This document shows positions 9,005-11,259 of a stretch of DNA of 64,000 nucleotides, piece by piece. The position numbers and the translations under genes were made by a program. This stretch comes from Nitrososphaerota archaeon (GTDB taxonomy: Archaea > Thermoproteota > Nitrososphaeria > Nitrososphaerales > Nitrosopumilaceae): contig JAGWFT010000002.1 of assembly GCA_028867755.1 (NCBI GenBank), forward strand, positions 1 through 64,000. Reading direction: 5' to 3'. Below the pieces are notes generated by a model. It was not told the origin of the DNA. It did not search any database and was given only the letters and a program-made list of their open reading frames with translations. Positions within the stretch are counted from its first letter, which is position 1, and every line of letters begins with the position of its first letter.

Positions 9005-9051
9005 ATGCACCATGACTTTTAAGACAAATTTATCTATTGTTGATGGTACAA

Positions 9052-10398
9052 ATGGCAAGATTATTTGGCACTAATGGAATAAGAGGGGTCTTCGGAGATA
9101 CCCTGACCCTAGATTTTGTATCAGATATTGTATCATCACTTGCAGCTTTTTTCAGAAAAGGCCCAATACTTGTTGGATATGATGGCAGAAAATCAAATGT
9201 AATAATGTCAAAGATAGTATGTGCATCTCTTAGCGCATCAGGGCTTGATTCTTCGATATGTGGTTTGGTACCAACCCCGTGTCTACAGTTTGCTACCAAA
9301 AAGCTAGGCTACAATGGAGGATTAATGATCACAGCCTCACACAATCCTCCACAATACAACGGACTGAAACCTACTGCAAGAGACGGCGTTGAGATCTCAA
9401 GAGAAGATGAGCTAAAAGTTGAAGATATTTATTTTAAGAAAAAATGGCACACAATAAAGAAACCAAGTTCAATAGGACAAGAAACCCGAGTCATTCGTAC
9501 ATATCTTGATGGAATTAAATCTCATGTAAATGTGAACAAGATCAAGTCTGACAGATTCAAGGTTGTGCTTGACTTGGGCAATGGCGCACAGGCAGTAACC
9601 GCTCCATTTCTTTGCAAAGAGCTTGGATGTAAAATAATTACCATAAATGAAAAAATAGATGGTTCATTTCCAGGAAGAGGATCAGAGCCAACACCGCAAA
9701 ACTTGGACAAATTATCAAAGGCTGTGGTAAAGTCCAAGGCAGACTTTGGTATCGCATTTGATGGTGACGGTGATAGGAGCATCTTTTGTGATGATACTGG
9801 AAAGATTCTGACAGGTGACAGGTCAGCTCTTCTAATATCGAGATTTATCTTAAATAAACATCACAAGTCAAAAGTTGTGACTACACTCAACTCCACTTCG
9901 GCAATTGAGACAATCGCACAGCAAACCAAGTCTAAAGTATTGAGGACAAGAGTAGGTAGTGTGGAAGTCTCGCGCAAAATGGTCGAGCAAGACGCACTAA
10001 TAGGTTTTGAAGAAAATGGAGGATTCATGTATGGAAGACATAACCAAGTAAGAGACGGTTCAATGACAATGGCTCTTGTGCTTGATTTATTGTCAAAAAC
10101 TAGCAAATCCCTGTCAGAGGAGCTTGATAGCTTACCTCAATCATTTACTACAAAAGGCAAGATTGAATGCTCTAAAGATGATTTCAAAAAAATACTCCAA
10201 AGCCTAAAAAATGAACCATACAAAAAAGACCTAACAGATGGAATCAAGATCTTTGTTGACAAATCAAGTTGGGTCATGGTAAGACTAAGCGGTACAGAAC
10301 CGATAGCAAGAATATATGCCGAATCAAACACCGAAGATAACTTGGATGAAATTTTCAGCAAATATATGTCAAAAATAAAGCGGGCATCTGGCAGATAA
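9052..10398 (+). CDS. Phosphohexomutase (phosphoglucosamine/phosphomannomutase type)
   Basis: The 448-residue enzyme moves phosphate between C6 and C1 of a hexose or hexosamine, feeding nucleotide sugars for glycosylation and the cell surface. It shows the N-terminal MARLFGTNGIRG, the phosphoserine loop TASHNPPQYNG near residue 97, the metal loop DGDGDRS near residue 238, the sugar loop EENGGFMYG near residue 320 and the phosphate loop RLSGTEP near residue 410. Whether it is GlmM or ManB cannot be told by eye. In-frame TTG 9037 and ATG 9043 lie upstream, but ATG 9052 gives the usual family N-terminus. Confidence 0.9.
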   Translation: MARLFGTNGIRGVFGDTLTLDFVSDIVSSLAAFFRKGPILVGYDGRKSNVIMSKIVCASLSASGLDSSICGLVPTPCLQFATKKLGYNGGLMITASHNPPQYNGLKPTARDGVEISREDELKVEDIYFKKKWHTIKKPSSIGQETRVIRTYLDGIKSHVNVNKIKSDRFKVVLDLGNGAQAVTAPFLCKELGCKIITINEKIDGSFPGRGSEPTPQNLDKLSKAVVKSKADFGIAFDGDGDRSIFCDDTGKILTGDRSALLISRFILNKHHKSKVVTTLNSTSAIETIAQQTKSKVLRTRVGSVEVSRKMVEQDALIGFEENGGFMYGRHNQVRDGSMTMALVLDLLSKTSKSLSEELDSLPQSFTTKGKIECSKDDFKKILQSLKNEPYKKDLTDGIKIFVDKSSWVMVRLSGTEPIARIYAESNTEDNLDEIFSKYMSKIKRASGR

Positions 10399-10400
10399 CA

Positions 10401-10410
10401 CTTTTAAAAC
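10401..10410 (+). promoter_or_regulatory. TATA box of the L7Ae operon
   Basis: CTTTTAAAAC is centred near 10405. Adding the usual 25-27 nt places the transcript start near 10431, giving a leader of about 28 nt before the L7Ae ATG at 10459. Confidence 0.6.
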
Positions 10411-10430
10411 CAATTGAAAGCACCCAAGGA

Positions 10431-10458
10431 ATGGAAATGATCCCAATGGGTGATACCT
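10431..10458 (+). promoter_or_regulatory. Predicted kink-turn mRNA leader of the L7Ae gene, containing its ribosome-binding site
   Basis: C42-C44 (10442-10444) pair with G48-G50 around the triloop AAU. Next to this stem come a U41:U51 pair and two tandem sheared pairs, G39:A53 and A40:G52, preceded by a three-nucleotide bulge A36-A37-U38. This is the box C/D-type kink-turn core that L7Ae binds. The outer stem is weaker: A35-U54, then G34-C56 and G33-C57 if A55 is bulged. The Shine-Dalgarno-like GGTGAT (10449-10454) lies in the 3' strand, so bound L7Ae would hide it. Leader kink-turn control of L7Ae is known in Sulfolobales. Confidence 0.62.
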
Positions 10459-10845
10459 ATGACTAAGGCTTATTACGTAAAGTTTCAAGTCCCCGCTGAC
10501 CTAGTTAGCCCTATCTACGAAGCAGTGAGGGTTGCTCATCAGAGTGGTAAAGTAAAGAAAGGTACAAACGAAGTCACAAAGGCAATAGAGAGAGGAATAA
10601 GTAAACTCGTAGTTATAGCTGAGGATGTCGAACCACCAGAGGTAGTAGCACATCTGCCAATACTCTGTGAGGAACATAATCTACCGTATAGCTTTGTGCC
10701 AAGCAGACAAGAATTGGGCAAGGCATTAGGAATTGATGTCACCTCTGCAGCAGCTGCGATAATAGATTCAGGAGATGCTCAACACATAGTTGACCAAATT
10801 GTGGCATCGCTAGCGCAGATAAAGGGTGGTCAAGCTAGCAAATGA
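10459..10845 (+). CDS. rpl7ae: Ribosomal protein L7Ae (kink-turn binding protein)
   Basis: The 128-residue protein is a typical L7Ae: [14 protein letters not shown] (residues about 35-50, RNA-contacting helix), [18 protein letters not shown] and [16 protein letters not shown]. It binds kink-turns in 23S rRNA, box C/D and H/ACA guide RNAs and RNase P. I chose ATG 10459 over the in-frame GTG 10450: it gives the family N-terminus MTKAYYVKF and lies 4 nt after GGTGAT. An 11-codon leader ORF from 10431 would overlap the start. The 3' end overlaps S28e by 4 nt, and the operon continues to aIF5B. Confidence 0.95.
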
Positions 10846-11048
10846 GTTCTGAAGTACCCATTCCCGCCGAAGTAATACAAATTGTTGGCCGAACAGGCAT
10901 TGCGGGAGAAGTTATACAAGTTAGAGTAAAGATACTGGATGGAAAAGACAAAGGCAGAGTTCTAACAAGAAACGTAAAGGGTTCTGTTAGAATGTCAGAC
11001 ATACTCATGTTACGTGAAACAGAACGTGAAGCAAGGAAGATAAAGTGA
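10842..11048 (+). CDS. rps28e: Ribosomal protein S28e
   Basis: This 68-residue OB-fold protein shows the S28e hallmarks [19 protein letters not shown] and the conserved C-terminal [13 protein letters not shown]. It sits near the mRNA exit/E site of the small subunit. The ATG overlaps the L7Ae stop (ATGA), so translation is probably coupled. The order L7Ae-S28e-L24e-ndk-aIF5B is a classic archaeal ribosomal cluster. Confidence 0.96.
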
Positions 11049-11055
11049 TTAAAAA

Positions 11056-11259
11056 TTGAGCGTTCTAGTTAAACCGTGCAGTTTTTGCAACAGACCAGTA
11101 GCAAAAGGTTCTGGCACCATGCTTGTAAAAAATGACGGTACAGTATTTTGGTTCTGTTCTTCTAAATGCAAAAAGAACATGCTTGTTCTCAAGCGTGATC
11201 CAAGAAGACTCAAGTGGACAAACAAGTATGTAAAAGGCGGAATAAGGGTCAAAAAGTAA
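11056..11259 (+). CDS. rpl24e: Ribosomal protein L24e
   Basis: The 67-residue zinc protein has [15 protein letters not shown] (residues 8-22), then [11 protein letters not shown] (residues 31-41), the treble-clef zinc site of L24e, and ends in a basic tail. The start is a TTG 7 nt after the S28e stop; no ATG is available before the first Cys. It ends 1 nt before ndk. Confidence 0.95.

Follow-up and report, generated by a model that had tools for sequence, protein, structure and literature searches.

We found that the 5′ leader of the l7ae mRNA in the window, by which we mean the whole 64-kb stretch of DNA analysed here, was confirmed by its letters as a standard kink-turn (k-turn), and we consider it highly probable, by analogy with characterized archaeal leaders, that ribosomal protein L7Ae represses its own translation by folding this leader and masking the Shine-Dalgarno sequence (SD) within it, with the overlapping S28e probably being repressed as well. 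The leader letters, read directly from the window sequence starting at 10430, are AATGGAAATGATCCCAATGGGTGATACCTATG. The k-turn core, identified by sequence, congener comparison, pairing statistics and descriptor search, runs on the forward strand from −1b to −1n (10435..10454) and carries its terminal loop on the NC helix. From sequence and leader comparison, its bulged (b) strand (10436..10444, +) consists of the AAU bulge L1–L3 (A10436, A10437, U10438), G1b (10439), A2b (10440), U at 3b (10441) and CCC (10442–10444); beyond the loop AAU (10445–10447), the non-bulged (n) strand (10448..10454, +) consists of GGG (10448–10450), U at 3n (10451), G2n (10452), A1n (10453) and U at −1n (10454), the last being paired with A10435 at −1b. 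The fold proposed in a first-pass annotation, a CCC/GGG stem with AAU loop, a U:U pair, two G:A pairs and a three-nucleotide bulge, is spelled exactly at these positions. As judged from the letters only, the tandem pairs that follow the 3-nt AAU bulge, G10439:A10453 and A10440:G10452, are those of a standard simple k-turn; in 40 aligned leaders the UGA and GA strands were invariant, and the NC helix CCC/GGG that follows the G:A pairs, as in a k-turn, was paired in 95% of cells. The C helix of the window consists of a single A-U pair (−1b:−1n) with mismatches beyond it, and the earlier doubt about a weak outer stem was thus justified. Folding energy of the leader showed no excess over shuffles, which is uninformative for a k-turn and is expected where the k-turn needs protein. 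A generic descriptor (UGA, x, three G-C pairs, a loop of 3–9, y, GA) gave one match on both strands of the 64 kb, and the pattern TGAWCCCN{3,9}GGGYGA gave one match in the 1.64-Mb genome; each was the l7ae leader. None of the Rfam covariance models matched the window leader, whether at the gathering threshold or with E allowed to rise to 1, and the Nop5-fibrillarin leader, which L7Ae is known to target in Sulfolobus, held no k-turn matching the same descriptor.

The motif, only about 20 nt long, fills nearly the whole leader. Between glmM (9037–10398) and the l7ae ATG at 10459 the DNA reads CACTTTTAAAACC..., the TATA box, and then the leader letters given above. The TATA box of the l7ae operon, TTTTAAAA (10402..10409, +), was recognized by sequence and by its fixed spacing in congeners and leaderless relatives; the distance from its end to L3 was 28–29 nt in all 20 distinct congener leaders. 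From the end of the TATA box to the ATG the window has 49 nt, as compared with 22–24 nt in most leaderless relatives, and the difference places the l7ae transcript start at an estimated 10432–10434. The same spacing supports the earlier proposal of a leader of about 28 nt, predicted here at 10431..10458 (+). The SD-like sequence GGTGAT, previously assigned to the 3′ strand of the fold, indeed lies wholly inside the n strand (10449..10454, +); it is complementary over 6 nt to the 16S 3′ end GGATCACCTCC, taken from two complete congeners since the window's own assembly is without 16S, and GGTGA is common in relatives. The presumed regulator and target, l7ae (ribosomal protein L7Ae/eL8; 10459..10845, +; TIGR03677, 167 bits, cut-off 134.6), is followed by rps28e (10842..11048, +), rpl24e (11056..11259, +; gene list and profile search) and ndk, rpl24e belonging to the same apparent operon. 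The rps28e start codon overlaps the l7ae stop as ATGA (10842–10845), and rps28e is likely to be translationally coupled to l7ae. Sequence and frame comparison also revealed a short out-of-frame ORF (12 protein letters; 10437..10466, +) from the bulge AUG, overlapping the l7ae start, which is probably incidental.

Using a general descriptor we found a k-turn of at least 3 bp in 138 of 196 distinct l7ae leaders from the class Nitrososphaeria, versus about 4% of control stretches (1.3% in the window strand order plus 2.7% in the reversed order, of 2336 control stretches). The window genome belongs to the genus Nitrosotalea, with Ca. Nitrosotalea bavarica (L039, G014) as a congener, and the k-turn was kept in 20/20 distinct Nitrosotalea leaders, 27/28 of the Nitrososphaeraceae (family f8), 3/3 of f3 and 6/7 of f2. 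Among congeners, the nucleotides between the TATA region and the core drift and the core stays. In a pattern search of 201 genomes, nearly all of the matches listed in f1, f2 and f8 lay in the l7ae leader, for example 1286035–1286050 in G048, which adjoins l7ae at 1285663–1286028. In G023 the leader motif was present on two contigs (C15 and C16), probably one locus duplicated in the assembly. Across 102 leaders with the window layout, drawn from f1, f2, f3 and f8, UGA...GA was kept, the stem was CCC/GGG in 90, and the loop measured 2–9 nt; the loop of f3 was 8 nt longer, with the stem and both UGA strands kept. The 3b:3n position was U:U in 78 of these leaders and A:U in 21. At −1b:−1n we found A-U in 50, G-C in 31, G-U in 9 and no pair in 12 (f2 leaders having mostly U:U), so that this position pairs in 90 of the 102 and covaries; further C-helix pairs were mostly absent. 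In the 40-row alignment, 91.9% of cells were paired versus at most 55% in slid registers, and the covariation score was 0.216 versus at most 0.101 in slid registers and was above nearly all shuffles. The covariation signal came mostly from one pair, that beside the bulge; the CCC/GGG stem is nearly invariant and therefore yields hardly any, and for an extended C helix of three pairs, with 52% of cells paired, covariation was not supported. The comparison with relatives proposed in the first-pass annotation thus bore out conservation, the motif with its invariant UGA...UGA being kept across genus, family and order while loop length varied; the covariation sought there was found in the pair beside the bulge and hardly at all in the stem.

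In sister families the two strands occur in the reverse order: GGGNGA is followed after 4–13 nt by GAUGANCCC, which gives an otherwise identical k-turn whose loop sits on the C helix. We observed this reversed layout in f4, f5, f7, f9, f10, f11, f12, most of f14 and f17, and, in other orders, in f20, f24 and part of f22; the window order is common to f1, f2, f3 and f8. A single, well-supported branch (99/93) of the L7Ae tree separates the two strand orders; for this, f6 (weak motif) was assigned by eye to the reversed group and f13 was kept separate. An RNA structure survives such a swap of halves, as a DNA site or a peptide would not, and the swap therefore counts for an RNA k-turn; covariation beyond GGG/CCC was weak in the reversed set. 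An AUG occupies the reversed bulge with its A at L2, its U at L3 and its G at 1b. Inside GAUGA this AUG probably starts l7ae in f5, f7, f10 (14/14), f20 (4/4), f22 and f24, for which reason the f10 protein would begin MTP. Leaders of this kind are L221 (f5), L028 and L131 (f7), L183, L211–L220, L222, L223 and L226 (f10), and L230–L233 (f20). In f4, f9, f11, f12, f14 and f17 a short ORF begins at the GAUGA AUG and terminates ahead of the l7ae start or close to it. For f4, this ORF ends on the l7ae start as TAATG in four of the five leaders (L030, L136, L168, L173), an overlap in the sequence that suggests translational coupling. We put at even chances the joint proposal that in sister families, where the bulge holds the l7ae start AUG and the other strand the SD-like GGGNGA, L7Ae would clamp both, and that strand order was reversed only once, giving rise to the layout that the window shares with its three companion families and in which the bulge AUG would have ceased to start l7ae. 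In one f2 leader, L176, GGTGA flanks GATGAGCCC on both sides and the k-turn could form in either order, possibly as a relic of a strand-order switch. Leaders of f13 (L163, L171, L172, L174, L175, L180) hold a k-turn candidate of another kind: its C helix has five pairs (CCGCA/UGCGG), and its n strand contains the likely l7ae start AUG within AAAUGGAUGCGG. The descriptor found no k-turn in the l7ae leaders of f18 and f19, and none that was convincing in those of f21.

The TATA-to-start distance in Nitrosopumilaceae was bimodal, being either 45–52 nt (nearly all leadered) or 15–24 nt (leaderless), and this difference provides an independent estimate of leader length. Leadered members had SD and k-turn together in 65 of 71 cases, GGTGA in 69 and the SD only in 4; the 14 leaderless l7ae genes, which include those of Nitrosopelagicus, several marine group I lineages and Cenarchaeum, had neither SD nor k-turn (L071, L075, L078, L080, L085, L086, L088, L089, L093–L095, L099, L186, L209). 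From these sequences it appears that l7ae became leaderless in the latter, losing SD and k-turn together; a predicted leader of about 26–28 nt with k-turn and SD would be either present or gone, with few intermediates. Intermediates such as L049 and L062 kept the SD with G1b mutated, and the existence of some Nitrosopumilaceae with SD and without G1b indicates that regulation is dispensable.

Three other readings of the conserved block were weighed against the k-turn. We regard as improbable a short upstream peptide controlling l7ae by coupling, in the form MIPMGD... from the bulge AUG or MEMIPMGD... from 10431: the bulge AUG is present in nearly all leaders, the f4 ORFs meet the l7ae start in the TAATG overlap noted above, and in window-type families an AUG in frame with l7ae always has a stop between (10/10), but the encoded peptides differ among lineages, all three frame relations to l7ae are found, the 8-nt loop insert of f3 breaks the frame while the stem and both UGA strands stay, and the beginnings MIP, MNP and MTP are merely a consequence of the k-turn letters AUGA-N-CCC. 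Still less probable is a DNA element to which a transcription factor would bind, as an operator or a downstream promoter element. Its half-sites would be reversed in order in sister families and variable in spacing, its 3′ half is the SD, and its flanks repeat directly (TGAT...TGAT) on either side of a CCC/GGG core that is inverted, as is typical of a k-turn rather than a palindrome; these features outweigh its place directly downstream of the presumed transcription start and its near invariance within the genus. Selection on the SD alone, with the hairpin as a chance by-product, hardly deserves credence, for although the bulk of the n strand is supplied by GGUGA itself, conservation across families is as high for the upstream strand AAUGAWCCC, which has no evident part in initiation, as for the SD, leaders with the SD only are rare (4/71), and a same-order k-turn occurs in 90 of the 124 leaders of f1, f2, f3 and f8 versus 1.3% of control stretches.

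Autoregulation by L7Ae through the k-turn would proceed as follows. We infer that the l7ae mRNA would start with a leader of about 26–28 nt that is almost entirely k-turn; the free leader would be largely unfolded, leaving the SD GGUGAU open for translation of l7ae and of the overlapping rps28e. Once L7Ae outnumbers its rRNA and guide-RNA targets, it would bind the leader and stabilise the bulge, the G:A pairs and the CCC/GGG stem, burying the SD, and the repression would be passed on to S28e via the overlapping start. Transcription starting after 10435 would remove the sole C-helix pair too, and would count against this course. L7Ae has been reported to fold such elements and shut the ribosome-binding site (PMC5539422, PMC6298567), and ion-driven folding is permitted by C at 3b, G at 3n, or C:G at −1b:−1n (PMC6298567). 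The window leader, with U:U at 3b:3n and A-U at −1b:−1n, has none of these features, and its folding should therefore depend on L7Ae. The A. fulgidus residues N33, E34, K37 and R41 map to N37, E38, K41 and R45 of window L7Ae, RNA-contact residues that were invariant in the alignment; the residues reading G1b and G2n show no variation here.

For the l7ae 5′-UTR of Sulfolobus acidocaldarius, L7Ae binding and self-repression were measured (Daume et al. 2017, PMC5539422). That leader resembles the window leader in having a simple k-turn with a 3-nt bulge, tandem G:A pairs, a short NC stem, a single C-helix pair and an adjoining SD; the window leader differs in its AAU bulge, 3-bp stem and 3-nt loop and in having the SD as the n strand. 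The A. fulgidus leader with AfL7Ae, for which a crystal structure is available (Huang, Ashraf and Lilley 2019, PMC6298567, PDB 6HCT), is alike in the rule of protein-dependent folding, U at 3n, the lack of C:G at −1b:−1n, a homologous protein with the same contact residues, and a ribosome-binding site occluded on binding; its SD lies in the C helix, whereas that of the window leader lies in the NC helix and G:A platform. The box C/D k-turn of guide RNAs (RUGAUGA/CUGA) is bound by the same protein and has almost identical core letters, UGAU...UGA; the window k-turn, unlike it, lies in an mRNA leader and has no guide sequence, second k-turn or k-loop. PMC5539422 also describes reporter repression for leaders from Staphylothermus, Archaeoglobus, Haloferax, Methanosarcina, Thermococcus and Methanococcus, and the l7ae leader switch is said to operate in most archaea; the earlier statement that such control is known in Sulfolobales was thus too narrow in scope (PMC5539422, PMC6298567). 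The main texts of these two papers, the first of which comes with a 121-species supplement, name no thaumarchaeon, and with the mechanism itself known the window leader would represent a further case of it. A full-text literature search on k-turn, thaumarch and L7Ae returned nothing on the subject as judged by title and abstract; we found no literature on transcript starts for Nitrosopumilus or Nitrososphaera, and none with thaumarchaeal binding, probing or reporter data for the l7ae leader. According to parts of PMC5539422 the l7ae start codon lies downstream of the SD, and the terms start codon, AUG and initiation are absent from PMC6298567; the start-codon form in the sister layout, of which we came across no description there, is possibly a variant of the known switch.

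Through these comparisons the range of a known autoregulatory RNA switch comes to include the ammonia-oxidising archaea and groups related to them, and the series shows how it changes: an SD serves also as a k-turn strand and a start codon also as the bulge, the order of the strands is reversed once, and the switch is repeatedly lost, the entire leader going with it, in several Nitrosopumilaceae. The k-turn descriptor can also be used for annotating l7ae starts, some of which are apparently CTG or GTG. At the position of the window ATG (10459), 6 of the 20 distinct Nitrosotalea leaders have CTG and 10 have GTG (such congeners include L009, L010, L011, L014, L016–L019 and L039–L041); an in-frame GTG inside the k-turn (10450) offers an alternative l7ae start.
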